Shown here piece by piece: positions 23,910 through 56,878 of a stretch of DNA of 64,000 nt (position 1 is its first letter; every line of letters starts with the position of its first letter). A program made the position numbers and the translations under genes. The notes under the pieces were generated by a model. The model made no database searches and was not told where the DNA came from. It saw only the letters and a program-made list of their open reading frames with translations. Source of the DNA: Branchiostoma floridae (taxonomy: Eukaryota > Chordata > Leptocardii > Amphioxiformes > Branchiostomatidae); contig NC_049989.1 in assembly GCF_000003815.2 (NCBI RefSeq), positions 9,216,880 to 9,280,879 on the forward strand. The letters run 5' to 3'.

Positions 23910-23916
23910 TATATAA
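23910..23916 (+). promoter_or_regulatory. TATA box of CUB cassette copy 1
   Basis: TATATAA, 61 bp before the ATG. The surrounding AAAGGTTYGTATATAACAGC is conserved before copy 4 (40578-40584), which supports a real core promoter. Confidence 0.6.
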
Positions 23917-28054: not shown

Positions 28055-28179
28055 NNNNNNNNNNNNNNNNNNNNNNNNNNNNNNNNNNNNNNNNNNNNNN
28101 NNNNNNNNNNNNNNNNNNNNNNNNNNNNNNNNNNNNNNNNNNNNNNNNNNNNNNNNNNNNNNNNNNNNNNNNNNNNNNN
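28055..28179. other. Assembly gap (125 N)
   Basis: A run of N between copies 1 and 2. Exons 1-2 of copy 2, if they exist, could be missing because of an assembly fault here. Confidence 0.99.
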
Positions 28180-28440: not shown

Positions 28441-28645
28441 CGATAACCGCCCTTCGGTGTAACACACCAGCTTCGCAGGCACGCGGCGCGGCAGCAGCTG
28501 GTTATATTACACTGACCGACCCGTCAGACCTAACTTTTGCACATCTATCTGCAAGAGTTCTTTAAAACTATCCAGAGAAGATGCCCGTACTGTGCTTGGT
28601 GATAAAATATTCCACTCTACGATAGTTCTGAGAAAATACGAATTT
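28441..28645 (+). repeat. Dispersed repeat, copy A (copy B at 43911-44115)
   Basis: About 200 bp is nearly identical to 43911-44115, which lies in intron 6 of the complete CUB-LU gene. Shared words include GTAACACACCAGCTTCGCAGG, CAGCAGCTGGTTATATTACAC and CACATCTATCTGCAAG. The frames are broken. It could be a transposon fragment or a remnant of the duplicated intron. Confidence 0.7.
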
Positions 28646-28849
28646 TTGAACACTTCAATCCTAGGTTGGTAACTCCGGTACTTTAAGGCATGACTGTTTC
28701 TAGTTCGTTTGAGCAGGTATTAGATACTTATCAGTCAGTAAGTCCACCGGCTTATTGGTCATTTTGTACATCATGCAAAGGCTGGACATTTTCCTTCTGT
28801 CTTCAAGTGACGTCCATTGCATGCAGTTCTGCTTTCATTCACTCCAGAC

Positions 28850-30264: not shown

Positions 30265-31529
30265 GTGGAAGATACTGGTTCCCGCCGGTAAGCGGATTCG
30301 TCTCGTCTTCAACTCTCTCAGCCTGGAGCATCACGGCAGTTGCAACTACGACTACCTCAAGGTGATCAAGAAAAGTACAACTTAACAATAATGATAGAAA
30401 GATTTTGACAGTGGCGCAAACAATGGTAGCTTATGGGGAAATGCTTTTTATAATTATTGTCCATTTTGAATACAACAATCATGTCTCTATCTTTCAGAAA
30501 GTATAGTAATATATGTGTAAAGGTATTGTCTGTATTTATAGTTTTCTCTAGACGCGATCTTTTTTTTTATCCTTGTGTTGTGAAGGTCACGTCTTGCCCC
30601 TTGTACCGTACCATGATAAAGTATTGGAATAAAATGCCATAAACAGCATAGACAGCGTACCGTATTCTTAGAACTGGTGTATAAAAGAATGGATCATCAA
30701 GGTCTTGTTTTCGTACTCAACTTTAAGCTATGAATTCCATAATCTCTTACATGCAAATTAGATATATGATGGAGGTGGCACATACGCCGGCTCCATCGGG
30801 AAATTTTGTGGTTACACCGTTCCGGAACAACTGATCACCTCTGGAAACATTGCGACTCTTTATTTCAGGTATGAGACTATTTTAAGGATTATATACAAGT
30901 TTTCCGAAGCAATGGTCTAGTGGGTAGAGTGCTCAATTTGCATGCGGTATACTGCTAATAGTTTCAATTCCCTTTCAATTCCTATTCTTTTTGGCAAAAC
31001 ATTGTAGTCATAGCAGAACCTAAAAGTTTTCGTCCTGCAAAGCTGTCTTGTCTAACTGCACACTAAAGTGTATTTACAACGTACGACGGTCTCTAGCCTG
31101 GATACCACACCCCATCCCGATCTCAATATGTATCGTGCACGATAGATATTGAGATCGGGCTGGGATGTGGTAACCAGGCTAGACGGTCTCGTGCATTTGT
31201 CAGATCTGACACCAGCGTTTCGGAGAAAGGTTTCGAACTGCAGTGGTCGGCCCTGAATGGAGGTGTGTCGGAAGTTACAACGGTAGCTACCACAACGTTG
31301 GGACATCCGACTGCCACCGTCAGTAGCGTCACAGCTGATGGAGGAGGGTCGAAGGTCAAAACTTCAGCTGCTACTAGTACATGGACCAAGGAAACCACTG
31401 GGACCGAGCGGCCAGACAATGTCGCCCCAACCACCAACAGTGGACTTCCGGCAACTACTACCAGTATATGGACCACGGAAACCACTGGGACCGAGCGGCC
31501 GGACAATGTTGCCCAAACCACAAACAGCG
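30265..31529 (+). pseudogene. CUB cassette copy 2 (exons 3-5 only)
   Basis: Exons 30265-30361, 30762-30868 and 31204-31529 match exons 3-5 of the family and are open with intact GT-AG sites. They encode the second half of a CUB domain (WKILVPAGKRIRLVF, SCNYDYLK, IYDGGGTYAGS, GFELQWSAL) and a Thr-rich stretch. Exon 5 is longer than in the other copies because a 23-codon block (STWTKETTGTERPDN.. then SIWTTETTGTERPDN..) is tandemly duplicated. No exon 1 (signal) or exon 2 is visible, and exon 3 starts in phase 2, so it cannot follow the phase-1 end of copy 1 exon 5 in frame. It is probably a relic, or a cassette used only with exon 2 of another copy. It is interrupted by a 1-kb element and a palindromic MITE. 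Confidence 0.7.
31094..31181. mobile_element. Palindromic MITE with perfect 9-bp target duplication
   Basis: The 88-bp near-perfect palindrome starts TAGCCTGGATACC and ends GGTAACCAGGCTA. GACGGTCTC flanks it on both sides (31085-31093 and 31182-31190). The other copies carry this word once at the same place, so the empty site is visible. It lies only 14 bp (after the duplication) before exon 5 of CUB copy 2. A relative with the same ends is at 58723-58901. Confidence 0.9.
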
Positions 31530-33730: not shown

Positions 33731-36674
33731 CATGTTCGCTTTTGGGGACCCGGGGCGGCTACGCCGTCCATTCGGCTTTGTCTGGTACTATCAGGAGCCC
33801 AGGGTTTCCTGACAGGTACCCATCTCGAACTAGCTGCAGGCAAGTATCTACCAGAACTTACCTTGTTCCATGCATTTGTTTTTGGCGCCGCCACGTTAAG
33901 CTTTTCAGGCCGATGCCAGACGCTCCGGTTCTCTTTTTCAAGTTGGAGGTCCAAGTCAGTCGTGTAGTTTTCTCTGTTTCCCCAATGGTCACCCTTGTGT
34001 GGTTTCTAATCTTCCAGGCCCTTTTCTTTTCTTATATTCGTCATATATTTCATGTATACTTCCCTCTGTATAATTCTCAATTGGCCTTTTTGTTGGTAGA
34101 CTACTTTTCTGTGTTTAAGCTATGGTTTTGTATCAATTTGAAAGAAATTTATCATCCATGTACGTACACGAATACGCTTCTCTCCTTCACGGTACACTGA
34201 ACAAAAACTAGTTTCTATCAAAGAACTTTATTGTTTATCATATTGACTGTCATTCCAATTGGTACCGCCAGGTGGAAGATCCTGGTTCCCGCCGGCAAGT
34301 GGATTCGTCTCGTCTTCAATTCTTTCAGTCTAGAGGGGTTCTTGGATTGCACCTATGACTACCTCCAGGTGATCAAGACAAGTAAAACTTAGCAATGATA
34401 GAAAGATGTTGACAGTCGACTAGTCACGCAAAAAATTGTGCCTGATGGAGAAATAGTTTTCCATCGTTCGTTTTGAATACAACATTTCTCTCTCTCTCTC
34501 TCTGTTTCAGAAAGTAATATAAGTGTGAAGGTATTGTCGGTTTTTGCAGTTTACTCTAGACTAGATGTACGCGCTATCTTTTTTTTATTTTTGTATTGAG
34601 AAGGTCACATCTTGCCCTTGTACCGTACCAGGATAAAGCATTTTTAATGCAAAAAACTATACAGTGTAGATGGTGTAGACAACTGGTGCATCAAAGGAAT
34701 GGATCAAGGACTCGTTTTAGTGTTCACCCTTGAGTGATGAATTCATAATGTTTTTTTACTAAAGAAGAGATGCTGCTTCGGTCATGCTCATATCAAGTGT
34801 TTTTGTGACTTGCTCGGAACTTGACTAGGGTGAGAAACTATTACTATTGTTTGATACAAAACGTCTGACTTATAATACACTCTTTTCCTCTGCAACTCCT
34901 ACTTGCAAATTAGATCTACGATGGGGGTGACGACTCCGCCCGATCCATGGGGAAATTTTGTGGGGAAAACGTTCCAGAACCACTGATCACTTCTGGGAAC
35001 ATGGCGTTTCTTTCATTCAGGTATGGGATGATTTTAAGGACTATATACTAGTATACCGAAGCAATGGCTTAGTGGGTAGAGTGCTCACTTTGCATGCGGT
35101 ATGCTGCTAATGGTTTCATGATCTCCAACCAACGCATTCCAAAGACTTTTTAAAAAAAGTTAAACATTCTGCTTAGCATCTATATAGCACGCAGAACTTC
35201 TGCAAAAATTTAAAAAGTATAAAAGTTGAACAAACAATGACACCTGCTTCCAATGGTTTAGACACAGTTATAGTATAGCACAGTATTACCTGTGCTTGTA
35301 TAGCTGTGTGGCTCACGGCCGCCCTATAGACCTTACGGTGTGGGAAAGACAATTTAACAACACTTTTTTTAACCGTTCAGAACACGTTCACATCAATATT
35401 GGTTTTAGAGATACCTCGTTTCCTCAAATAGCCCGACCGGGCCCCGGTTTGGAAATGTGACGTTTGGTCCTTAACCGTAATTACGACTTATGACGGTCTC
35501 GTGCATTTGTCAGCTCTGACCAGGTCATAAGCAAGAAGGGTTTTGAACTGCAGTGGTCGGCCCTGGATGCGACTCCCACCGTCACAGCTGATGGAGGAGG
35601 TTCGGAGGTTACTGCAGGTACTACAGCATTTGGACATCCGACAACTACTACCAGTACTACCGATCGGCCAGACAATGTCGCTCCAACCACAAACAGCGGT
35701 GAGTTCGGCACTAGGAAAATGTTGTATTTCATGTTAGGCCAACGGCAAATTTCCAAACAGGGTCCCGGCCGACCTGTTTGCGCTGGAAACGAAAAATAGA
35801 AAAGCATACGTTATAAAACTATACACGCGTAATACCCACGACTGTTCTCTTTACGTCAAGTGTAGTCTAGTTTGGAGTCTTTTATATCATGGATGTGAGT
35901 TCTCTTCTAAAACGTTTTATATAAGGTAAATGTCTCTTATATATAAGGTCTCATTAGATAAAACCCCAAAGAATGTATTTTTCAGCAAAATCCGTACGTG
36001 GGTGGACCACGGTGTCACGATGATTCACCGGACAAATTTGATCATAAATTAACAACAAACACCTTTTGAAAGAGTGTCAATTTTTTGCCATCAATTTTAT
36101 CAGTCCCATAGCTGCTATTATAATAGTTTCAGGCAGGCAAAAATAAAATTCACCGGAGTAGATTTAGTAAGGCCTACGCATACGTGACATTCCCAAACCG
36201 GGGCCCGGTCGGCAGCCTTCGGGAAAGAAAAGTATTGTGTAAAAGACACCAAACTACACAAGACGTAAAGAGAATAGTCGTGGGCATCATTTGTGTGTAT
36301 TTCGACGTATATATTTCTATTTTTCGTTTCCACAGACAATCCGATCGGGCCCGGTTTGGGAATGTGACGTTAGCCTTAACCATGCGCATGCGCCGGGGAT
36401 AGAGGGGTATACGTATACAGTAGTGAAGCAAATGAGCCTACAGGGTCTTACAGGCCTGGAATACCTATAAGTTTTGCTAAGCAGGTACAATGCGTACAGT
36501 TGTCTAACCTCCCCCCCCCCCCATGTTTTGCAGGTGTGCAGTCTGTGCTATACGGATGAAAGGTGTAACACTCGCGTCCTGACCGGCCATAGCGAAGCTC
36601 GAGCCCCAGGCGGAAGTCACGCTGGCTCGTGTCTATCTTGGCCCTTACAATGTGTCTGGATATCCTGGCAATGA
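33731..36674 (+). pseudogene. CUB-LU copy 3, decayed (exons 2-5 and 9)
   Basis: Exons 33731-33839, 34272-34368, 34914-35020 and 35514-35698 match exons 2-5, and 36534-36674 matches exon 9. Exon 1 with promoter and signal peptide is deleted: flanking homology jumps from about 33665 to 33680. Exon 2 ends in a GC donor (CAG/GCAAGT). Exons 6-8 are absent, and exon 5 (ends phase 1) cannot join exon 9 (starts phase 0). Exon 9 has lost one cysteine of the CC pair (CSLCYTDERCN) and carries a 22-nt deletion relative to copy 4. That deletion shifts the frame of the GPI-signal tail, which instead ends in PLQCVWISWQ. The CUB half itself is open and well conserved. It is probably a pseudogene, unless the cassette is spliced to other copies. 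Confidence 0.8.
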
Positions 36675-38285
36675 TTGATTAAACGAGTTTTCTCATTCTT
36701 ACCTTTAAACCCAAATAGATTATTCGCTGCTTTCTACCAGTCACAATATTTTATGGACACATTTGACTCTTAGCAAAAAGCAATATGCTGAGTGTGTTCT
36801 AGGCTTCTGTCTAATGCTAACAAGCCACATCTGTGTAGATTCTGGACAGTTTCTTGAAGTTTATACTACTCTCTTAGTTTGGGACAGAAACACAAAGCAG
36901 TACTTGTGCCAATACATTTAGTAATGGGTATTTTTACAGTTAACATAATTTTGGTTGAAAGGCCGAATACTGAACTTTCCTTTATTCTGATTTCACGTAT
37001 TTGGTAAATAGACCATGACCTTTGACATGAATGTAATTGACTAGACTAGACCATATGGAGGAGGAGCTTAGATTAGCACATTAGGTAATCCCTGATTGGT
37101 TGGGTAGTGAGAGTACCTAATTAACTTACCTGATTGGCTAAGTTGACAACCTATCGTTATTTTACGTCGATGTAGGTTAGACATCCAAGTAATAAGATAC
37201 GCCAAAAAGCAGTTACTCAAGCAACTGGATATGGTTTTACAAAACTATATCCAGTTGCTTGAGTAACTGCATTTTAGCGTATTGTTATGTTAGTTTAGCT
37301 TAATAGCTTATGGATTGTATAAAATTATATATCTGTCAGTTGGTGCCCACGGGACTGAGGTAAGCACACTTGTTAGCCAGTCCCTCTGTAAGATCGTGTA
37401 CAAGTTTGATAGACCAGCTCTCTCTGTATTTATTTAGAATCGCTATCTCTGTATTGTAATTAGGCTTAGTAATGGACACATCTTATGCCCAAACCTGCAT
37501 CCTGGACTTGTAAATGTAAATCTGCTGTAACAGTATTGAAGCACCTTTTATCATATGTCACTCGAGTATAGCATAGATTGAATAAACACGGCTCACAAAT
37601 GGTAATCGAACTGGTTTGGAGTTTGTTTGGAGTTTCTGATAAGCTAATATAGAACTTAGAACCCAAACACCATTTACGTTTCAGCTACAGCGGCTACAAT
37701 GCCCATCTAAATGTTTGTAAATGGGCTTCTTTCGGGTGGTAGATTTTATTTAGACTAACTTGTGAATACGGCTAGTAGAACAGATTCAACGTCACATACA
37801 CATAATACAGTTGCAATTGTTGTTTCGTGGGCAAAATGGCAAATATCAAAGGAACAATTCAGAATTTCTATCACACTTTTGTATGTATGTTTTTGTCACC
37901 ACGCTGGGAACGAGATTATGATTCATGACCAATGAAGACCACGCATGAGGGTTGGTCGTGCCCAGAGAATAAAAGATACATAATTCTATTATTGCAATTT
38001 TAAACTTTACATCTGTAGCCAAAATAAAGCGCTTACCAACAAGTATTCGATTAGTCCTCTGATCCTTATTTAGTTGAAATGACCCAAAGCCTATGTCACA
38101 CATCCAGACCGGAAGTGTGACGTCAGCAAAGGGTCAAAGGTGCTTGGCAGTCGGTATCGGCCCCCGTCTCGGTTGAGGGAAGGTTGGAAGTCTTTGTAAA
38201 GGAGTGAAGCACGTACACAGGTCAAATTTTAAACGACTTTTAAATCGACAGCTTTGTATGACCAGGAACTATATCTCGTAAAGAA
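36675..38285. other. 3' flank of copy 3, no gene recognised
   Basis: 37850-37970 (GCTGGGAACGAGATTATGA, TGAAGACCACGC) is repeated at 46187-46330, after copy 4. So the duplication unit extends well past the last exon. A palindromic element lies at 37209-37270. No coding signal. Confidence 0.6.
37209..37270. repeat. Palindromic element (24-bp perfect arms)
   Basis: Arms 37209-37232 (GCAGTTACTCAAGCAACTGG..) and 37247-37270 are exact complements with a 14-nt loop. Outer similarity extends to ATACGC / GCGTAT. A half-like word AGTTACTCAAGCAA occurs at about 63429. Confidence 0.8.
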
Positions 38286-38288
38286 TTG

Positions 38289-39949
38289 TTATTATTAACA
38301 CCTTGGTGGTTCCCCAGTTTACGAATTTATTTCAAGTCTTACCATCCCCTGACGATTCCTTTTTCAAAGTATATGAAAAGAAGATATTTTCTTTTATTTG
38401 GGACGACGGTCCTGAACGAGTTGCACGGAAGGTATTATACAATGTATTTGAAAATGGAGGACTTAATTTAAAAAATTTACGTGCATTCAACTCTTCTATA
38501 AAAGCTTCATGGGTGCCTAAACTTTATTCCCATCCCGAATGGTTTTCCTCTTGGGTAACAGTCTTCCATCCTCAACTTAGTCATAGTTTATTTCCTTTTT
38601 ACCAGCTGTCCTCGGTGAAAAACCTTTGTTTAAAAGGATTTTTTTCTGAAGTTTTTATGGCCTGGTTTAAATTTCAGCAAGTAGAGCCCACGACGCCGGC
38701 AAATATACGACAGCAATTAATTTGTTTAAACTCTAAAATTATCATTGATGGTAGAACTGTTTGTATGACTTCTTTCCTGAATAGAAATATCTATTTCATA
38801 AATGACTTGCTGTCCCCGAATGGTAATTTTATGTCTTATGATGAATTCAGTATAAATTTCCCAAATGCTTGTGACCAACATAGATATCTACAACTTATTT
38901 CAGCTATTCCCGGTAAATGGAAAAAAATACTTAGTACTGAGAAGCGTAAAGACCTTGTGTGCCTGCCCTTTCAAAAAAATTATAAATGGTTACGAAAGAT
39001 AAAAATCACAAAAGCATGTATATCTACTTTCTTACGTCCATGAACGATGTCAGTCTTGCACATAATACTAGACTTTCTTGGTTTTATCATTTTGACAAAC
39101 CTATACCATGGCGAGAAGTATTTACAAATTTATACAGATGTACTATTGATCCTAGTGCTAGATACTTTCAATACCGTTTAATTAATAAATTCTTACCTTG
39201 TAACAAAATTCTACATATATGGAAATTAATAGACTCTAACTCCTCTTCTTTCTGTCACGATGATGTAGAGTCCTATACTCATGTTTTCTGGGAGTGTCCG
39301 CATGTTGTATCCTTTTGGAATGATGTACAAAGTTGGTTACGAGTGGAAACGTCTATAGATTTTGACCTAAACGCCTTTATCATCATATTTGGAGATACAT
39401 GTAACGATGCGCCCCCACTGAAAAATTTGATTATGTTGTTAGGTAAAGTTTTTATTTTGTAGACGCTTTAAAATGATAAACTTCCAGGCCTTTAAAAAAC
39501 TAATATATACTTTTGAAAAAACTGAACGTCTTATTGCATCTCGGAGAGGGAAGCTGGAGAAGCATCGGGGTAAGTGGGGAACCTTGTGTTTTTGATTTGA
39601 ATTTAAAAAGGTAAAAATAATTACGAAATAATATAAATACGATACGAGAATGATATTTGATTAATATGTTACAATAACACGATAAAACGATGTACAATGA
39701 TCTAGTATCATGTTAATATGGTCTTATGATATAATGTGTTACAATGTGATGATAAAATTATATTAAGTAATGCTTTGATAGCTAAAATGAATAACGAGAA
39801 TAATGACATAATAATATTTATATGATGTGATCTGTAATAATGTATACAATGTGGCTGTTAGACATTTAGCTTTATATTCAAAGGGAGGCTCTTCTTTGTT
39901 CTGTGTGTAAATAATTGAAAATACAATGAATAAATTTAAAAAAAAAAAA
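38289..39949 (+). mobile_element. 5'-truncated L1/Tx1-type LINE with poly-A tail
   Basis: Two overlapping open frames (about 38303-39043 and 38986-39462) encode the C-terminal part of a LINE ORF2. The first has the post-reverse-transcriptase region (IFSFIWDDGPERVARKVLY, ENGGLNLKNL). The second has a region ending in a C..H..WECPHV..FWN zinc-finger-like motif. A frame break separates them, so the copy is dead. After about 490 bp of AT-rich 3' end come AATAAA (39929) and a 12-A tail. The flanks share AAAGAATKG (38280-38288 and 39947 onward), a plausible target-site duplication inside the duplicated 5' flank of copy 4. Endonuclease and polymerase core are missing. Confidence 0.85.
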
Positions 39950-40577: not shown

Positions 40578-40584
40578 TATATAA
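40578..40584 (+). promoter_or_regulatory. TATA box of the complete CUB-LU gene
   Basis: TATATAA, 46 bp before the ATG, in the context TTTGTATATAACAGC shared with copy 1. This implies a very short 5' UTR. Confidence 0.65.
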
Positions 40585-40623
40585 CAGCAATAATCTCTTG
40601 TTTCTGGTCATTCCTCGAAGAAC

Positions 40624-43600
40624 ATGAAAGTAGGAACGATGACTGTGCGCGCCATAGTTTTGATGAATTTTGCAATTCTTGTCTTTTTGTTGTTTGGAAC
40701 CGCAGAGGGACAAGACGAAGGTAAGTCAATAACTTTATATCTTCATCTGATATCAAAAACACATGAGCATTGTATACAGCTTTTGTGTGCCACTCACATA
40801 CGACGTACCTACACCCATGTACACACACTCATGATATAAAGTCATTCCGTTAAGCTAAGTTACATTTGGCCAGGAAATTGCACTATAATAGTTAGTCACG
40901 ATATCGTTTCAGATATGTAAAATCATTCTCACAAAAGATAAAAAAAAACTTCGACGTTTGGCTTAGCAAAATGGAAACGTCTTTAGCTATAATTTATGTG
41001 TACTGTTTTGCTCTGCAGCATGTTCGAATTCGGGGACTCGGCGCCGGCCCGCCATCCTTTCGGCTTTGTCTGGAACTATCAAGAGCCCAGGGTTTCCTGA
41101 CAACTACCCATCTCCATCCACCTGCAGGTACGTATCTACAAGACCTTACTTCGTCCCACGCCTTTGTCTTCAGCGATGTCACGACAGCTTTTCAGCCCGA
41201 TGTCAGACGCTCTAGATAGATCCCTGTTTTTTTGTTGTTGTTTTTTTTTGCGTTGGAATTCTAAGTCAGTGTTAGGATTTCCTCTGCTTCGCCATGGCCA
41301 CACTTACGTGGTTTCTAATCTTTCTGTGACTCTTTTCTTATTTTCTTGTACATGTCAAGTATATATCTGCCCTCTTTTGATATCATGACCTCTAGCTCTG
41401 GCATGGTCACTTCCCTCTGTTTTGTTCTAGTACTTCTACTTGTTGGTAGACTACGTATTTGTGTTAATGTATCAATTTAAAGAGGTTTATCTATCATCCT
41501 TGTACGTTTACGAATACATCCCTCTCTTGCAAGGCTCACTGAAATAACTAGCCTCTATCAATGAACTTGTTTATCAGACTTTGCATATCAGAATATTGTC
41601 ATTCCAATTGGTGCCGCCAGGTGGAAGATCCTGGTTCCCGCCGGCAAGCGGATTCGTCTCGTCTTCAACTCTTTCAACGTGGAAAAACAAGCGGATTGCA
41701 CCTACGACTACCTCCAGGTGATCAAGACAAGTACAACTTAACAATGATAGAAAGATTTTGACAATCACGCAACCAATTGTGGCTGATGGAGAAATAGTTT
41801 TCGTCGTTCATTTTGAATACAACCGGTGATTTCTCGCTCTTTCTTTCATAAAGTATGGTAACATAAGTGTGAAGGTAATGTTGGCTCGTGGTCGGTATTT
41901 ACAGTACCCTACATATCTTTGTTTTATGTGTTGGGAGGCTCTTGTCAAGTGAGGGTACCGTACCATTATAAAGCATTGGAATAAAATACCATTAACTATA
42001 CAGTGTAGACAGCGTACCGTACTCTTAGAACAGGTACACCAAAGGAATGGATCAAGGATTAGTTCCCACCTTTAGTTGATGAATTATATAATGTTTCTGG
42101 CTTAATGAGAAGAGATGTTGTTTTAGTCATATTCATGTAACCTTAAAGTGGTCTTCGGGAAGTTGAGTAGGGTGAGGAAATCTTATTGTTTGATACAAAA
42201 CTCTGCCTTATAATACACGTTTATCCTCCGCAAATTAGATCCATGATGGAGGTGCCGACTCCGCCCGATCCATGGGGAGATTTTGTGGGGAAAACGTTCC
42301 AGAACCACTGATCACTTCTGGGAACATGGCGTTTCTTTATTTCAAGTATGGGGCGACTTTAAGGATTATGTACTAGTATATAGAAGTAATGGCCTCCTGG
42401 GTAGAGTGATCACTTTGCATGCGGTATACTGCGATTGGTTTCAGTTCCCAACCGAGTTATTCCAAAGACTTTAAAACTTAAACACTGCTTCTCTCTCTCT
42501 TTTTTTTAACATACAGAAACTTGCGAAAAGGGATAAACGTTGAAGAAACACTGACACCTGTTTCCGATTGACTAGGCTCCTGTTGTATACAGTAGTATTA
42601 CCTGTGCTTGTATAGCCGTGTGGCTCAAGGGCTAAGGACACGGAAATTTTCGCCGCCCTATACACCATACGGTGTGGGGACGACAATTTGACGATTTTAT
42701 TTTTTATCCGTCCAGAACGCGTCAATTAGTATTGGGAGATACATGTTTAACTTACATGGTGTCAGAAATACGTGTAAAAGGCATTGTGTAATTGGCAAAT
42801 ACTGTATTTATAACAGACCTAATTAAAGGCCTCAGGTCTATGAAGTTGTCTCCTTGAACTGTACACTAAAGCGTTCTTACGACTTATGACGGTTTCGTGC
42901 ATTTGTAGATCTGACACCAGCGTTTCGAGCAAGGGTTTCGAACTGCAGTGGTCGGCCCTGGATCCGAATGTCACCGTCAGTAGCGTGACAACTGATGGAC
43001 AGGGCGGGTCGGAGGTCACAACTGCAACTACCACAACACTGGGACATCCAGCAGCTACTACCAGTACATGGACCACGGAAACCACGGGGACCAAGCGGCC
43101 AGACAATGTCGCCCCAACCAGAAACAGTGGTACCGGTGAGTTTGGGACTAGGAAAAATGTTGTTTCTTGTTACCCAACTGATCATATCAAAACTTACTAA
43201 CTATAGCTTGTTTCTGGTTCACAGCTATCAAAGGACATTAAATTTTCTACCATCATCTCTACGTGTGGTTTAAAGGTTGTAGAGTTGTTTTCCAACATGC
43301 TCTCCTCAATAATATGTATGTATCAATAGAAAAAGTGGTATAAACAGACCAGTTGAATCCGGGTCCCCCTTCAATCTATCAAAATATATGATTGAAAATA
43401 CTAATGTCTAAATGCATTTTAGCTCTGCATTGTCAATATGTTTACTTAGACCAAAATCTAAAATAAAGGAAAGAAAGAAAAAAAGATAACCCCTACCCAC
43501 TGACCGAGGATCGTTATTTACGGATTTTTTTTTTCGTAGGCTTTGTTGTTGAAACAAGCGGGCGGCCAGCGACTATCACAGGGCATATAAACACCACCGA

Positions 43601-45574
43601 TCGGTCAGGCATAGCCTTTTCCTCAAGAGATGCGTCTGGGGGACCCCTGGCAACTACATGGTACACGAGCACCACCAAGCGGTCAGACATCGTCACTACA
43701 CCAGCGCTTTGGGATAACATGACCATGAACACCGAAGGTAGGACATGTTGTATACTCTTATTAGGAGGTAGGGGGTGTGTAAGGTTGCAAACTATTATGT
43801 ATATGTCTGTTAGCGTTAGCCTAGAAGTCTCCGTAAACATGCATGTATGGTCGTCTTAAATTCTAAATTCTGTATCTGTCTGTATCTGTATCTGTATCTA
43901 TATAGCCGGTATAACCGCCATTCGGCGTAACACACCAGCTTCGCAGGCATGCGGTGCGGCAGCAGCTGGTTATATTACACTGAACGATCCGTCACACCTA
44001 ACTTTTGCACATCTATCTGCAAGCGTTCTTTAAAGCTATCCAGAGATGATGCCCCTACTGTGCTTGGTGATAACAATTTCCACTCCACGATAGTTCTGGG
44101 AAAGTACGAATTTTTTAAAAATTTTGAAAAATTCTACGTTGTTGATACAGATTTGTGATATTTTGATTTTCTATCCCTTCTAGTGTATGCGGAGAACATC
44201 ATCTGTTACGCGTGTGAGGGGACATCGCCTGCGTGTTTAAGAGGAGAGGGCCTGGGAGACTTTGCAGTGGAGTGCCGACAAGACGAAGCTTGCTGGGTAA
44301 GGTTCACAAGAAGTACGGGTTTATGCAGTTATCATTTTGATGAAAATGACACCACCGTAAACTTTGATTTTACATCACAATGCATCACGTCCGCACCTGC
44401 AACTGTGGTTAACTGGCTTATACAATGTTAACACGCCTTTGACTCGGGCCACAGCAAGGAAATTTTATGGATGACATCAGCATGCATATTACTCTAAGCC
44501 TGACCTTAGAAAAAATTACCCCTCAGGGTTGAACATGACAACAAAATACCAAAAATGGAAAACATATCGTATGGTAGCTTTGATTGTACTTGTAGAGGCC
44601 TAGTGAGGAATATGTAGCCATGGCCGTAGTTGTAGAAGTGAAACTTTAGTTCGATACTGGCACCAATGTGGTAGCCATGACTGTACTGTAGATGACAACT
44701 TGGTAAGTGACACCAGTCTTCCGCACTAGTGTAATTTTGTGCCCTTCTTGGAGATCGTTATAAAAGCCATTTGGCCATGCTACCATGTTTTGTTGTCATC
44801 TCCAGGTGGAACGTATCGGAGAGCGAGGAGCCGTGATCTACCGGCGCAGCTGCCGGCCGAAGTGTACCGACTACTGGCAGGAGGAGGTCTGCATGACCGC
44901 CGATGGGCAAGCCGAGGTGAGCTCTCTTCCAAAAAGTTTCAATGTAAAAAAAAGGTTCATCACACGTTTAATATTTAAGTCCTTACGAGGTCCGTATGGA
45001 AGTCTTAGCAAATGTACTAGACAGATAACATGCCAGAGGACTTAGCTGGTCGCAAACCATACTTTCCAGACAGCTAACTCTTCTGGCATATTATGTGTCA
45101 CAATCAACCTCAAACGCTTTTGTAAACAAAGTGTCAAAGTTTGCCATCAATTGTATCAGTCCCATAGCTCAGCTTTTACGTACGTACACAATAGTTTCAA
45201 ACAGGCAAAAATCACCGGAGTCGGTTTAGTTAGTAGTTAGGCATAAGTCACGTATCCAAACCGGGGCCCGGCCGGGTAGCTTTCGGTATTGAAAAGCATG
45301 CTACAAAAGCATGAAACCAAACGGCTACATACAGGCCTGGGATACTGGTAAGTTTTGTTAAGCAGGTGTACAGGTTTAACTTAACCCCCTAAATGTCTTA
45401 CAGGTGTGTAGTCTGTGCTGTACGAAGGACAGGTGCAACACTCACGTCCTGACCGGCCATAGCGAAGCTCGAGCCCCAGGGGGAAGTGACGCCGGGACAA
45501 CCGTGGCGTCAGTCAAGCTAGTGTCTATCTTGGCCCTTACAATGTGTCTGGATATCCTGGCAATGGCTGATTAA
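40624..45574 (+). CDS. GPI-anchored-type CUB / Ser-Thr-rich / Ly6-uPAR (three-finger) protein
   Basis: Nine exons: 40624-40720, 41019-41127, 41621-41717, 42239-42345, 42909-43135, 43540-43737, 44184-44296, 44806-44916, 45404-45574. All have GT/AG signals and matching phases; they total 1230 nt, 409 aa. Residues 1-30 are a signal peptide (MNFAILVFLLFGTAEG core). Residues 34-150 form one CUB domain with cysteines 34, 68, 95 and 117 and motifs GTIKSPGFPDNYP, DCTYDYLQ and GFELQWSAL. Residues 151-280 (exons 5-6) are Ser/Thr-rich, mucin-like. Residues 283-368 are a Ly6/uPAR (LU) domain with 12 cysteines ending in CCTKDRCN, the CCxxxxCN signature. The tail (VKLVSILALTMCLDILAMAD) is hydrophobic and suits a GPI signal. 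Predicted to be an outer-leaflet surface protein; ligand and role are unknown. I know no named family with this order. The tail contains Asp residues, so GPI anchoring is inference. Confidence 0.85.
43911..44115 (+). repeat. Dispersed repeat, copy B (in intron 6 of the CUB-LU gene)
   Basis: Partner of 28441-28645. If this piece is native intron 6, copy A marks where the 3' part of copy 1 used to be, and exons 7-9 should have followed it. They are not found there. Confidence 0.6.
44447..44479 (+). repeat. Dispersed repeat end GGCCACAGCAAG..GGATGACATC
   Basis: The same about 32-bp word as the ends of the 14-15 kb element. Here it is in intron 7 of the CUB-LU gene. A further copy at 48209-48236 is slightly different. 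Confidence 0.6.
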
Positions 45575-47230: not shown

Positions 47231-47275
47231 AGTGAATGACAAGGCATCCGCCCCACTTCTTACTGACATATCATC

Positions 47276-47680
47276 ATGAGCCAGTCCCAGCGGACGATGG
47301 CAGGGTTCGAGGCGATAGCGTCTACAGAGTCTACCGACACTCCGTCTCACGCTGACTACGCCCAGAAGATATGTGAGGTTGCGGAGAAATTGGGGTACCC
47401 ACATGAGTACACACGTGTCATGGAGGTACTTATGGACGCCAGTGACCCTCGCAACCAGCCCATATACCCAGGAGCAAGGATCACGATCATACAAGCTGTT
47501 ACGCTGCAGCTCCATTTGTTTGTGACGTCAGGTCCGGGAGGGAGCAGCTCCGTACCAAGCCGAATGATGTGGAGGGCCGTGCATTCGTTATTGCCAACTC
47601 CCAATAAGATGCCCAACAGAATAGCGGTGGCGGAAAAGATGATAAAAGATCTGCTTTCGGACAGTGTCAATTCTGACTAG
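47276..47680 (+). CDS. Uncharacterised single-exon protein, 134 aa
   Basis: An intact frame from ATG to TAG (starts MSQSQRTMAGFEAIAS, ends KMIKDLLSDSVNSD). It has no signal peptide and no membrane segment. The middle is mixed alpha/beta in character (DYAQKICEVAEKLGYP, ARITIIQAVTLQLHLFV) with a short GPGGSSS linker. I do not recognise a family. Balanced amino-acid use, an upstream TATA box at a sensible distance and higher GC than the flanks argue that it is real. It could be a young or lineage-restricted gene, or the first exon of a longer one, since a readthrough stop is the only visible end. It lies 1.7 kb after the CUB-LU gene on the same strand. Confidence 0.55.
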   Translation: MSQSQRTMAGFEAIASTESTDTPSHADYAQKICEVAEKLGYPHEYTRVMEVLMDASDPRNQPIYPGARITIIQAVTLQLHLFVTSGPGGSSSVPSRMMWRAVHSLLPTPNKMPNRIAVAEKMIKDLLSDSVNSD

Positions 47681-50990: not shown

Positions 50991-52012
50991 TGCTTTGAGA
51001 GTTACAGTAACAGAAGTAGATGCCTTCCACCATCCATGTTTTTCCTGCAAGTCATGGAGGTCGGAAAACAACTTGCAAAATGAATCTCAAGATCCTGATT
51101 TCAAGTGTGAACAGCTGTTTTGCCAACATAAAATGTTATGATTGTGAATTTCGGTTGTCAACAAAGATTTCACTTCTTTTTGACACAAAAATGCATGATT
51201 CTGACACTTTTTTCCGCTCTTTAAAAAAACCCCATAGATCAAATAATTAGTAGGAATGTCTACTTAGGTTGTTCTTGACAAATTACAAAGTTTATGCACT
51301 TTTCAACATGCTACACGATTATCCAAAACCCTTGTCTCAGGACATGCTAGTCAGTAGTTCAGATAGAAAGAGTCAACTTGCCAAAACCCAGTTTCCCTCA
51401 AAACATGGTGCGAATTGTTTTTTGAGCATATTTGCACTGCTGTAGGTAAAATTTGGACAGTTTTTACCTGCACCAATCATCTTCTTTCCTTTTGTAGTCC
51501 ATCTAAAATAATGTCAAGATGTTCCTGGTAGTACTCTGCTGTATAACAGGGTGCCTTTCTCAAGCATTCATGGCAATTTTGGACGACTGCTGTCAGGTTT
51601 TATCATAGGCCCATGCAGGTTAGGTGTACCTGCACAAGTCTAACTTTACCTGCACTAAACTTGCATGTTAATGCTATTTCAAGCCTTGGAATGCAATTCT
51701 GTTTCAGCATATTATATACATATTGAACAGATTGAAAACTAGATTTAACCAGTACAAATTGTACCTGAACTTTTTCCAATGGCAAGTTTCGAAACAAGAC
51801 TTTCAAACTGGTCCCAGGCAGTACTATACAAATAATAACAGATCTCTAGAAAATCTTCTAACTGAATGTGTTATCAATATCATAATTGGTAATGCCTGTA
51901 AATTTCTTTGCCATCTTTCAAGTACTTCTAAAAGTTGAACTAAAATCAAAACTTGCCACCACAGAATCAAAACGTGGCACCACAGAGTCTACTTTGCGGA
52001 CAGTGTTCGTAG
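50991..52012. other. Deltex 3' side, no other gene seen
   Basis: Presumably includes the Deltex 3' UTR. Short open frames have no motif. GTACCTGCAC-type words recur at 51610-51770. Confidence 0.4.
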
Positions 52013-55000
52013 TCACTCGGTCACCCCGTGTGCCGCCAGCTCTGCGATGACGTTGTCCAGGTACTCTGGGTCGGGGTAGCCGTGGCCGGTCACGTTGGAG
52101 CCGAACTCCGTCTTGTGGTGGATCTCGTTCCACGTGACGGTGTTGTCCTCTCCCGTCGTCGTGGAGCGACCAATGGTGAAGATGAGGCGACGTTCCCACG
52201 CCTTGATCAGCAACTGGAGCACCTGGAAAGGCACGGTGAGGGATATTTTTAAAGAATAGCAATGGTGCGTCTACAGCTTCATTACATTGTACTAGTTGAT
52301 CTCTTGTAAATTATTATCAGACTTTCAGCAAAAGATTTTGAGTGCAATGGGCTTATTTTTTTTGCTGCCATCTAATAAAGCCATTGCCTACCTTGCGTCC
52401 CTTTTCAGTGTCTGGCAGGTAGCAGAGGCGAGGAAAGCCCCGTGCTGTGTACTTTTTCCCTGGGGTGGGATGCTCTCCCCACAGAGGCCAACCAGATGTT
52501 GGGCAGGCTGCTAATATAAGTGAGATTTAATCATGCTACAATAAAGCCATTGCCTACCTTACGCCCCTTTTCAGTGTCTGGCAGGTAGCAGAGGCGAGGA
52601 AAGCCCCGTGCTGTGTACTTTTTCCCTGGGGTGGGATGCTCTGGACCCTGAAAAACATGCAATACAATTAAACCTCAAATTATCATTGAAGAGGTTCATC
52701 AGTCATGTATGAGTAAGTTAATAAAACATTCTTTAATCAGTGACTCTTTGGGAACTCAAAAATCCAAATTTTCAACGTCTGCTCAGTACATCTTGATCAC
52801 AGAGTGATGTTTGCTTCTCAAACACATTTTTGTAAACATCTGTATAGTATGTGGGGAAGGACAACCTCAAGCCAACCGTTCACACTTACGCCACATCTTC
52901 AGAAAAGACGCTGGAGATGCATGTTCCCCGTTTAGGAACTTTATTCGAACCGACGATTTCTGTAAACGTCTGTGCTTGTTTCTGAAGTTTCTGGCATGTG
53001 CACTATGACATCATTGCCAAACAATAACTTGTAATTAGAGTGAAAGAATGAAGTCGCAAATATGGTTTGTTGATGGTGCAAGGGAAAAGGGTGTACATTT
53101 GGCACAGAAATGCATTAAGTACCTGTTAGCGGAGTTATATTATTTATTTCTGGTCTTCTGATAAAATCTGAGAGTTTCAGAAATACATGGAATGTCAGAT
53201 TGTGATGCCACACCTGGATGCCATGGGGTCATGGTGTAGATGATGCGGATGTGTGTTTATGTAATGTCAGATTGTACTGCCACACCTGGATGCCATGCGG
53301 TATGGTGTAGATGATGCGGATGTGTGTTTATGTAATGTCAGATTGTACTGCCACACCTGGATGCCATGCGGTATGGTGTAGACGATGCGGATGTGTGTTA
53401 ATGTAATGTCAGATTGTACTGCCCCACCTGGATGCCATGGGGTATGGTGTAGATGATGCGGATGGTGTGACAGTCCACGTAGCCGGGTAGCGGGTACGGG
53501 ATGACGTGGTAGTCCATCGTGCCGGGTGGTTGGTTCCCACATTTCTCTCCGTAGATCGTCTTACAGGTGGGACACTGCAAACTGCCATCCTGGGTCGGAC
53601 CAAAAAAGACGTTAACCTTCATAGTATTGAAACAGCCTTGATAAAAATCATATCACTGACATGCTGTAAAACTAAAAGGCTACACTTTCTACTTTCACAA
53701 CTTGCGTGACTTGTTCTGAATCTGCAAGGACAAGTATATAATGTCCTTTGATATAGTGATGAACACCCAACAAAAATCCCATGTTTTTCTTTAAACAAAA
53801 TCCAACAAAACCTTGTAAATTCATTTAACTGCCAGAAATCTAGAATTTGCAGCATGATGAAAATCAAGAATTTGTAGCATTTTTAACTAAATTGAAACAA
53901 TCCTGACAACATATATTTTGATGTAGAGTGGATGGATCAAAATTCAATATTTACCGCCATAGATCTGTTACTATTCAGCTTCACAAAAGCAAAAGCACAG
54001 AAGAACCAGTTACATTGTCACCCCTAAAATACTCATTTTTAAAATGCGTCCCCTAAGAAAATTCTCATTTTCTAAATGCCTCCCCTAAAAAATTCTCACA
54101 GTCCAAATGCCTCCCCTTAAAAAAGTCTCATTGTCCAAATGCCGGTACTCCTGTTGTCAAAATCTCCCATCATTCTCAGCCCTGCTAACCTCTTTTCTAG
54201 ATCTAGCCTCACAATGATTGGCTAACTGGCTGACCTTTGACCCACTGTTGTACATGGCCAGTAGACAGACTCCGTGGAACACATGGTTGCAGTGCTGCAG
54301 TTTGGTCACCATGGAGGGAGCCATGTTGTCTGTGGCATCGTAACCAGATGGTCCTCTCAAGTTCTCACAGCAGATGGGACAATCCTGAAACAGAAGATTA
54401 CAGCTTGTCAGGTTCTAAATCTTAAGAAATTTGCATATGAATATGTGTACTCAAAGGTTGTGTCTTGTAGCATTAAGCCCACCACAAAAAAATGTGAATT
54501 TAAAAAGATTTACAAATATCCAGGTGTTTCCTGGTCATTATTCAAAAGCCTCAACAGTCATGTATTTTAAAATGACGAGGTCAAAAGTCCTTTTATTCCA
54601 ACAAAAACTAATGTAATATTACACATGTATCTTGTAGCCTGCTGTATACTAGTTACTAAGCCACTTCTGAGGAGTATTCGAGGCAAGTTTAGGCTAGTAG
54701 TAGTAATCGCAAAATGTGACCACTGAGGTCGGCTGGCTTTATCATGGCCCAATGCACGTCAGATATCAGAAATACCTGCACAGCTCCAATTTCACTAAAC
54801 CTGCCTCTGCAGATTTCTTAAGAATTACACACCTCATCAGGGGGCTGTTCCTTCATCTTCACAGAGTACTTCTTTAAGACGTCAGGTCCACTCAGGCTGT
54901 TCTTGGTTTTGGACGATTTCCTGCGGAGTTTCTTGGGCGGGGGGACCCCCTGCACGGGGCGGCACTCCATTTTTGACACGTGAGGGGGGCTGAGGATGGG

Positions 55001-56878
55001 TCCTGTGCAGTGGGTCAGACGCACGGGTAGAGCTGGGGACATCAGCAAGCCTGTCATGCCTACATGAAACAGAAGGGGGAGCTGTTAGGCAGGAAACAGG
55101 TAGGAAAATTAGATGATATGAAAAGGTGGGGAGATTGCCATGTAAATAAAAATTAAACCAAAAAATGTCTTTCCTAATGGTTTGAATAAGAGCAATTGTA
55201 AAAAATGAAGTATTAGTGTTAATGTTCACTTACATTCACTCACTATCCTATATAATATCAACATATGCCAATAACAAATGCCTCCTATTATGCTGTGTAT
55301 CGGTATTAAGAATAATGCAGTCAAACTTGGTCAGGGTAACTACCTTGCGTAGACAGCCACCCCCAGTCAAAAAACACATTAAAACAGCCCTGTCCATTTT
55401 TCCAAGTCCTCTAAAACCACCTGGTCACAGGAATGACTTTTGCTTAGTATCTCGAGTGATTGCTGAGACCAGGTGTTCTAAAGTAGTCCAAGACATAAAG
55501 AATTGACACAATGTCTATCATACCTGTCACAGCATGCGTTAGGTGGGAAATGGCATGTCTGTTATGCGCCACAACTGTCGTGGGCTGTCCTCCGCTGACC
55601 AGTGCAGGCGTGCTCCGTGCACGCGGCCTTGCTCCTGTGTTCACTGGTAGCGACGTAGCGGCAGCGGGTGGCACTGCCGCCATCCCATTTGTACTTGTTG
55701 ACAGTTTATAGTTTATTCCATTCCTGCTTTTCATGCCAGAAACACTAGGTGGCGGTACTGCACTGCTAGCACTATGTGTCCTTTTATTGCTCCCTCCAAC
55801 TGAAGTGCTTGGCACTAATGTCGTGTTACAGTGTACATGACCGTTCACGTATGTCGGACTCGGCATCTTGCCGGTGCCCACGTAGCTATAGTTTCCTGAC
55901 AGCGGGTACACGACTGGCATCTGTACGCGCTGAATCTTCCTGGTGTAGCCCGTCTCCTGGCGAGTCTGAGTCATGGTTCTGAAGTCTATGGTGTACGGCA
56001 GGTTGGCCAGCGTGTGCAGCAGGTCGACGGACGGCGCTCCGGATATGTACGCGGCCTCCAGGACGTAGCACGTGTCCATGTCGTACAGCGACCAGGCGCA
56101 GTCTCCCCACCACTGCCACACCACGCCCCGGCCAGGCGCGGAGTCTGGGGGGTACTCCTTTCTCCTGACGGATCGGACTGTTCCTAATAATCACGTGGAA
56201 CAAAATCTTTTATCATGGACAAATATAGCCTGTACAACACAATATTTCCTCAGGTCCAAAGAAGCAAAGCTATTTTCCGCTTTGGTCAATAATATGCACA
56301 TAAGACGTAGTGAAACCAATTCCTTCTGGAATAATTTAGGCAATTTTTTCAATTCTCTTTACTCAGTCATAGTATACTTTTGAATGCCTCTGCCTCGGGC
56401 GTATAGTCAAAACACAAAACTACAATTTCTTTCCACTTTGTCACCACAATTATATTGCCTTTGATAAATGGATAAGCAGCACGATAACACTACACAAAAA
56501 TTCCTCCTGGAACATACAGTAAGTCACCTTTATCTTTAACCTTTTCACTGCTGAGTCTTGACATTAAATGTATATCTATTAATATGGGCTAGGTAGAAGA
56601 AGGAAGATTAATCCTAGAGTATGACTGGTACCTGTGTCTGTCCGTAGTTGCTCCATGGAGTCCTTGTCCACCACGTACACCCCCAGCCGCTGGTCAGCCT
56701 TCACCAGTCCCACGCTGGGAGTGGGCGACTCCTGCTCCAGCAGCCGGCACACCGCGGGCTCGTACGGGCGCCAGTGTCCCGTGTCCGTCTGCCACTCCCA
56801 CACCGCAATGTTGGGCATGGCCACGGGCCCTGCCGCCGCAGAGACGTTACCACATCCGCTGGGGACATACGTCGCCAT
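52013..56878 (-). CDS. DTX1/4-like (deltex): Deltex E3 ubiquitin-protein ligase (DTX1/DTX4 type)
   Basis: Seven coding exons: 56878-56632, 56183-55524, 55059-54833, 54384-54235, 53589-53428, 52647-52558, 52222-52013. All are GT-AG with matching phases; 1746 nt, 581 aa. An alternative in-frame ATG at 56890 would add four residues (MFSE). Residues about 25-170 hold two WWE domains ([33 protein letters not shown]), the Notch ankyrin-binding part of Deltex. Residues 171-335 are low-complexity. Residues 380-437 are a RING ([24 protein letters not shown]). The rest is the Deltex C-terminal domain ([35 protein letters not shown]). Deltex modulates Notch trafficking, and the RING-DTC unit of this family can ubiquitylate ADP-ribose-containing targets. 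The protein is somewhat shorter than the human ones (about 620 aa), with a reduced Pro-rich linker. Confidence 0.95.
52392..52472 (-). CDS. Duplicated copy of Deltex exon 6
   Basis: An almost exact second copy of exon 6 lies between exons 6 and 7. It encodes [19 protein letters not shown] and onward to GRK, followed by the same GTAGGC donor. In the 81 shared bases I count two differences near the end, both synonymous (GGG/GGA, CGT/CGC). Its acceptor side differs: the GGTCCAG start is replaced by TGTGGGGAGAG, leaving a poor AG directly before CAT. Use of this copy instead of exon 6 would drop three residues (GPE); use of both would stay in frame. Expression is unknown. Confidence 0.7.
53192..53475 (-). 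repeat. 71-bp tandem repeat covering the end of Deltex exon 5 and its donor
   Basis: Units start at 53192, 53264, 53335 and 53406 (period 71-72). Each contains, on the minus strand, the last about 45 nt of exon 5 (CACCATCCGCATC.., GGCATCCAG) plus a GTGTGGC or GTGGGGC donor. The donor-proximal bases are therefore present four times, with last-exon-base positions 53428 (true), 53357, 53286 and 53214. Confidence 0.85.
54018..54145. repeat. Short tandem repeat, period about 36 bp
   Basis: CCCCTAAAAAATTCTCAT followed by TTTCTAAATGCCT or GTCCAAATGCCT is repeated about 3.5 times in Deltex intron 4. Confidence 0.75.

Follow-up and report, generated by a model that had tools for sequence, protein, structure and literature searches.

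A predicted glycosylphosphatidylinositol-anchored CUB-stalk-LU protein gene and its relatives in Branchiostoma floridae

The window analyzed here is a 64,000-nucleotide (nt) stretch of the Branchiostoma floridae genome assembly (C11:9216880-9280879); positions without a contig name are counted within it. It contains, at 40624-45574 on the plus strand, a gene called copy D beside its tandem neighbors and W in comparisons. The gene most likely encodes, with a probability that we put at about 80%, a secreted, glycosylphosphatidylinositol (GPI)-anchored, single-CUB member of a CUB(/LDLa)-stalk-LU family built from phase-1 exon modules. The joining of a CUB and an LU domain in one predicted protein is well supported. 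Relatives on contig C4 show the same joining, and the group therefore appears to be a real gene family rather than a gene-model mistake. Fuller relatives have the order CUB-CUB-LDLa-stalk-LU-tail (U2) or CUB-LDLa-CUB-LU-tail (R1a and R2), and the window gene is therefore viewed as a reduced, single-CUB member.

The preliminary description had proposed nine in-frame exons encoding 409 amino acids (aa), and that model holds at the exact coordinates. All introns are GT-AG and the spliced sequence is 1230 nt long including the stop codon. The elements, all on the plus strand, are:

40578-40585, TATA box TATATAAC; the same 8-mer lies upstream of copy A at 23910
40624-40720, exon 1: start codon and signal peptide, leaving in phase 1
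41019-41127, exon 2: CUB part 1, entered in phase 1 and left in phase 2
41621-41717, exon 3: CUB part 2, with Glu90, Tyr97 and Asp98 of the Ca2+ site
42239-42345, exon 4: CUB part 3
42909-43135, exon 5: CUB end (Asp139, Ser141), then Thr-rich stalk, leaving in phase 1
43540-43737, exon 6: stalk, symmetrical 1-1
44184-44296, exon 7: LU domain, cysteines 1-5
44806-44916, exon 8: LU domain, middle
45404-45574, exon 9: LU end (CCTKDRCN), GPI-type hydrophobic tail and stop

Introns measure 298-563 nt with a G+C content of 34-41%, against 42-65% in the exons. From exon 1 to exon 9 (E1-E9) the phases in and out are 0/1, 1/2, 2/0, 0/2, 2/1, 1/1, 1/0, 0/0 and 0/stop. Because of these phases, E2-E5 (the CUB and the first half of the stalk) and E6 (the second stalk exon) each form a symmetrical 1-1 module, and a phase-1 intron precedes the LU part at E7. 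By a codon-usage score trained on exons 1-5 and the CUB copies, with the background taken from the same introns that supplied the 111 intron windows, the predicted frame scores +0.40 in E6 and +0.26 in E7-E9, whereas the other frames reach -0.056 or lower and the best intron window -0.22.

The CUB domain is unambiguous by profile, matching PF00431 over residues 48-150 (E = 3.6e-30; 105 bits against a curated cut-off of 21.4). CUB domains carry four cysteines that form two pairs, and all four are present (Cys34, 68, 95 and 117). Among solved structures, the top matches are cubilin, PCPE-1 and the neuropilins; Neto2 is also found with a lower score. In C1s, the Ca2+/lysine site consists of Glu45, Tyr52, Asp53, Asp98 and Ser100 (PMC4222235, in part). 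Sequence comparison places the equivalents of all five in the window gene as Glu90, Tyr97, Asp98, Asp139 and Ser141. Pfam finds one CUB only and no LDLa match in this gene.

The LU domain is less straightforward. A 90-aa piece matches four LU-like families at once, namely QVR (0.0013; 20.1 of 27.3 bits), UPAR_LY6 (0.0054; 17.6 of 24.8 bits), Toxin_TOLIP (0.17) and Activin_recp (0.23). None of the four matches any of nine shuffled versions of the piece, five of which kept the cysteines fixed, and a chance match was thereby ruled out. Thus, of the two profile assignments in the preliminary description, the CUB is significant and the LU lies under the Pfam cut-off, though relatives and shuffles favor it. 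A sequence search for a solved structure matching the LU piece found none.

The LU fold is three-fingered, with disulfides 1-5, 2-3, 4-6, 7-8 and 9-10. It has been defined by ten plesiotypic cysteines and an Asn after the tenth (PMC6600238 section 2). The window-gene LU holds 12 cysteines, the ten of this definition and two more (345 and 355), with Asn after the last. The one-to-one assignment of the ten follows what we take to be the spacing in CD59. In LU genes, a phase-1 intron is described as leading into the exon set of the domain, and a second intron as splitting it at the loop 2 tip (PMC6600238 section 2). Here the inner intron lies one residue past cysteine 5, a few residues before the presumed loop 2 tip, and a further intron separates the loop 3 part from the CC motif.

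Ser and Thr make up 34.6% of the stalk, and the 409-aa protein contains three N-glycosylation sequons. Homology between the two stalk exons, E5 and E6, is weak, as 163 of 5000 shuffles reach its score. At the C terminus, small residues (379-385) are followed by a 17-residue hydrophobic end of mean hydropathy 2.29 that finishes at residue 408 of 409. The tail was judged to be of GPI type by rule (small residues, spacer, hydrophobic end and no further tail).

The assembly was searched exon by exon (513,431,437 bases in 431 contigs). The LU query gave 21 matches, four in the window, nine on C4 that form three complete E7-E8-E9 triplets, and eight weaker ones, four of these also on C4. Surroundings were examined for all C4 matches and for three of the four weak ones elsewhere (C1, C12 and C13; C2 was left out). 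By this exon-by-exon search, C4 holds at least seven LU units of the family, and more may exist:

C4 28.742-28.755 Mb, minus strand, R1a: CUB1 over four exons, the last of which also holds LDLa; then a second CUB-like stretch, an exon-6 relative, LU and tail
C4 28.763-28.771 Mb, minus strand, R1b: CUB pieces and LDLa, followed by exons 8 and 9 of the LU; no exon 7 was found
C4 29.650-29.661 Mb, plus strand, R2: CUB1 (four exons), LDLa, second CUB-like stretch, LU and tail
C4 31149149-31152711, R3 (L023): LU and tail, with about 45 kb of upstream sequence free of CUB matches
C4 20.330-20.336 Mb, U1: CUB, CUB, LDLa-like motif and LU
C4 20.338-20.344 Mb, U2: CUB, CUB, LDLa, Thr-rich stalk, LU and tail
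C4 17.569-17.574 Mb, V: the latter half of one CUB, the initial part of a further one, LU and tail

In six of these seven units, the LU exons are preceded by CUB exons on the same strand. With 968 CUB candidates in the 513 Mb of the genome, chance alone would place about 0.01 of them in an upstream stretch of 12 kb, a rough estimate given that CUB exons are clustered. Within the 9.9 kb examined at the LU loci on C1, C12 and C13, no CUB was matched with an E-value of 0.05 or lower. LDLa modules are above the Pfam cut-off in R1a (4.8e-7), R2 (2.5e-7) and U2 (2.4e-6) and just below it in R1b (8.1e-5); a strict LDLa pattern caught the R1b copy alone, and the others were seen by eye before being checked with Pfam. 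In R2, the piece that includes the end of the second CUB-like stretch has no Pfam match.

The gene structure is also shared. Splice sites were compared in W, R1a, R2, R3, V and U, the last having one anchor in U1 and its E8 acceptor from U2. Three sites coincide in all six: the donor of E7, which follows Cys-Trp, the acceptor of E8, which precedes Val-Glu-Arg, and the acceptor of E9. The E8 donor, compared without the U2 site, does so in five of the six. All 12 LU cysteines are invariant in the six aligned family sequences. CUB1 of R2 is split in phases 2, 0 and 2, as in the window gene, and the module borders in R2 and U2 are compatible with phase 1, several of them having more than one candidate site. 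Module borders of this kind, in phase 1 for the window gene and phase-1-compatible for these two relatives, are as in exon shuffling. In a tree of 13 CUBs, comprising six manually spliced family members and seven of the eight best-scoring CUB loci of the genome (the incomplete L005 was left out), the family CUBs group against the other seven with moderate support (87/92).

Two other searches yielded no additional members: PF00021 gave three weak exon matches in the same genome, none from this family, and a prokaryote contig collection gave 281 pattern matches with 0 confirmed. As a separate observation, the last LU exon of R1a (L013, C4:28742285-28742458) is reported within an open frame of 1699 aa, a length that the 377 N in the stretch examined do not explain.

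Could a CUB gene (exons 1-6) and a separate same-strand Ly6 gene (exons 7-9) have been wrongly joined? The phase match at the CUB/LU junction is weak evidence by itself, because phase 1 is common for extracellular modules, and R3 has LU exons without a nearby CUB. Erroneous gene models are moreover a known worry in counts of domain combinations that include the lancelet (PMC3499355, in part). However, the same order recurs in six of the seven C4 units. In addition, a relative of exon 6 sits between the CUB and the LU in R1a (54% over 35 aa, 2.2e-7), better evidence than the E5/E6 stalk homology, and copy C, one of the partial copies listed below, has an exon 9 equivalent downstream of its CUB exons. 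The stretch between the two parts (43138-44170) yielded no separate signal-peptide exon for the LU part, looked for with a consensus donor in phase 1, and no anchor for the CUB part. We therefore regard such a fusion as extremely improbable. The possibility left by the preliminary description, that exons 1-5 and 7-9 belong to two separate genes, is answered by the C4 relatives of the same order and rejected on this and on the missing LU signal-peptide exon. Its proposed order of signal peptide, one CUB, Thr-rich stalk, LU and GPI-type tail is likewise supported, with the gene family behind it.

Several observations nevertheless weigh against a GPI-anchored CUB-stalk-LU family. The LU scores of the window gene fall short of the Pfam gathering cut-off, and the tail contains an Asp (403). 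No AATAAA occurs within 1.9 kb 3' of the stop codon, the single ATTAAA overlapping the stop itself. In a genome-wide exon search with the CUB and stalk as query, the C4 relatives were not among the 150 matches listed of 665 candidates; because their CUBs are split into short exons, this result counts neither for nor against the family. Finally, R3 shows LU exons without a CUB match in about 45 kb upstream, a stretch that includes a 100-N gap; it has either lost its heads or is a plain LU-GPI gene.

Upstream of the gene, and in tandem with it, lie three partial paralogues:

23971-26544, plus strand, copy A: equivalents of exons 1-5 with its own TATA box; LU exons not found; 100-N gap at 24901-25000
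30265-31529, plus strand, copy B: equivalents of exons 3-5 only
33731-36682, plus strand, copy C: equivalents of exons 2-5 and of exon 9; exons 1 and 6-8 not found

The preliminary description referred to copy-number variation beside the gene; what one assembly contains is really these three partial tandem copies. Part of the missing end of copy A could be in a 125-N gap at 28055-28179. In copy C, the exon 2 donor is GC, the stretch that holds E6-E8 is absent, and the exon 9 equivalent (36534-36682) is 22 nt shorter and out of frame. Nevertheless, all eight CUB exons (E2-E4) present in the three copies have the length of their counterparts in D. Exon 5 varies in A, B, C and D (188, 326, 185 and 227 nt), but all four lengths are 2 modulo 3, and all four copies retain an intact GTGAGT donor on it. 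Global alignment had suggested indels in the CUB exons (A [1,1], B [2,2], C [2,7,9,2,1,3]); because the exons are equal in length, we hold these to be over-gapping. Read by eye, the five-residue Ca2+ site is complete in A, B, R1a and R2, and its Ser position is changed in C, U1 and U2. In U2, the Glu and Tyr of the site are one residue further apart.

The ratio of nonsynonymous to synonymous change (dN/dS) on CUB branches is 0.36-0.63 for A, B and C. For D it is 1.08 and 1.00 in two of three comparisons, whereas the third value, 10.9, is unstable with almost no synonymous change. All three bootstrap intervals for D include dN=dS; the excess over 1 is not significant, and positive selection on D is not supported. 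Among the branches, dN=dS lies outside the interval for C only, in two of three comparisons, and pairwise it is excluded for A-B and B-C. Because of these branch and pairwise values, A-C were probably under some protein constraint after duplication.

A role in immune or gamete recognition, in which tandem-duplicated, fast-changing CUB heads meet variable partners, would fit the four CUB cassettes (one partial) within about 19 kb and the higher ratios on the D branch than on those of A, B and C. Dispensable genes of lancelets are also reported to be enriched in defence genes (PMC12373286, in part). Yet the D intervals all include dN=dS, and B and C as assembled have neither a signal-peptide exon nor an intact anchor. 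We consider this role, which the preliminary description had suggested, a tentative and rather doubtful possibility.

Either copies A-C decayed recently, or their heads remain in use. They contain no intact LU and tail exons, yet they keep an open frame and a phase-1 donor on exon 5. Clustered protocadherins provide a model for splicing alternative heads onto a shared end, and in that manner the heads of A-C could be spliced onto the single stalk-LU-GPI end of D, giving alternative heads on one anchor. We think this very improbable; if true, the LU-GPI end would be a shared, mobile anchor for changeable heads in lancelets.

The same region carries probable traces of mobile elements. A retrotransposon piece at 38282-39462, presumably of the non-long-terminal-repeat type, lies between copies C and D (zf-RVT 2.8e-8 in 38986-39459). 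A repeat of about 205 bp, possibly like a short interspersed element, occurs in two 92% identical copies, at 28443-28647 near the start of copy B and at 43911-44115 directly upstream of E7, where the LU exons of D begin. Two mobile-element-like, self-complementary stretches are found at 31092-31183 (92 bp) and 37197-37282 (86 bp), about 91% each.

If the window gene encodes a GPI-anchored CUB-stalk-LU protein, its signal peptide would be cleaved and its hydrophobic tail replaced by GPI. The Thr-rich stalk would be O-glycosylated and lift the CUB off the membrane. Given the C1s-type site, the CUB, depending on Ca2+, could capture a protein ligand by one of the ligand's basic residues, and the membrane-near LU domain may make lateral contacts. 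Since the protein has no cytoplasmic part, it should not signal by itself, and by inference the best reading is of a surface co-receptor, adhesion molecule or decoy, in keeping with the surface receptor or decoy proposed in the preliminary description.

A more specific proposal is an accessory subunit of a receptor or ion channel, made by fusing two module types that are each auxiliary elsewhere: CUB/LDLa in Neto and LEV-10, and LU in lynx and sleepless/quiver. In this regard, U2 combines an LU domain with CUB-CUB-LDLa, the order that we take to be that of Neto. Among the LU models, QVR of the quiver family fits the window gene best, and Neto2 is among the solved CUB matches, though cubilin, PCPE-1 and the neuropilins score higher. 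However, there is no transmembrane or cytoplasmic part, and the window gene lacks CUB2 and LDLa, making such a subunit unlikely.

Elsewhere in the window, a Deltex-like gene occupies about 52000-56190 on the minus strand (WWE 6.9e-19; Deltex C-terminal domain 7.8e-29). One exon of this gene sits in a 103-bp stretch that occurs twice with 98% identity (52374-52476 and 52540-52642), giving a possible alternative or dead exon, and a tandem repeat of about 71 bp with copies 91-95% alike lies inside the gene at 53187-53469. A single open frame at 47267-47680 (137 aa) has a TATA-like stretch upstream, and its only match is a sub-threshold ARID (0.11).

Receptors of the Neto1/2 and LRP3/10/12 type have an ectodomain with two CUBs and an LDLa, a transmembrane helix and a cytoplasmic tail. 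The likeness lies in CUB-CUB-LDLa in U2 and CUB-LDLa-CUB in R1a and R2, whereas the family has an LU domain and a GPI-type tail in place of the transmembrane and cytoplasmic parts. The window gene itself differs from the Neto and LRP12 type further in having one CUB, no LDLa and a hydrophobic end one residue from the C terminus. With the Ca2+-binding CUBs of C1s/C1r/MASP, cubilin, PCPE-1 and neuropilin it shares all five C1s-site residues, but its single CUB stands on a stalk with no protease, EGF, Sushi or discoidin partner such as we take those proteins to have.

On the LU side, GPIHBP1 and SP-10 resemble the window gene in combining one LU with an added non-LU part, and GPIHBP1 is glycolipid-anchored; the added part is not known to be a CUB or an LDLa module. 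GPIHBP1, SP-10 and the TGF-beta receptors are cited as cases in which an LU domain stands in non-homologous protein surroundings (PMC6600238 section 5). GPI-anchored LU proteins of the CD59, lynx and quiver/sleepless type share with the window gene the ten standard cysteines and the Asn after the last, as well as a phase-1 intron before the domain, an intron near loop 2 and a GPI-type signal in the last exon (PMC6600238, in part). Unlike them, it adds a CUB and a stalk in front, cysteines 345 and 355, and a further intron before the CC motif.

The LU domain has been regarded as probably not a true mobile module, being predominantly found singly or in LU repeats, and rather as a 'proto-module' in a few other contexts (PMC6600238 section 5). 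A starfish survey describes 48 LU proteins of G-protein-coupled-receptor-like, activin-receptor-like, two-LU and one-LU forms (PMC11595613, in part), and 'CUB' occurs 0 times in its main text. In the part of the open-licence literature that we examined, we found no paper naming a CUB-LU protein, and the combination may be annotated elsewhere. For this combination the relatives make a gene-model error unlikely as far as sequence can tell. In several units, spread over the large contigs C4 and C11, CUB and CUB/LDLa proteins end in an LU that has a GPI-type tail and a phase-1 border. Here LU would have served as an anchor-bearing shuffled module, and the family would define a testable class of GPI-anchored CUB co-receptors.

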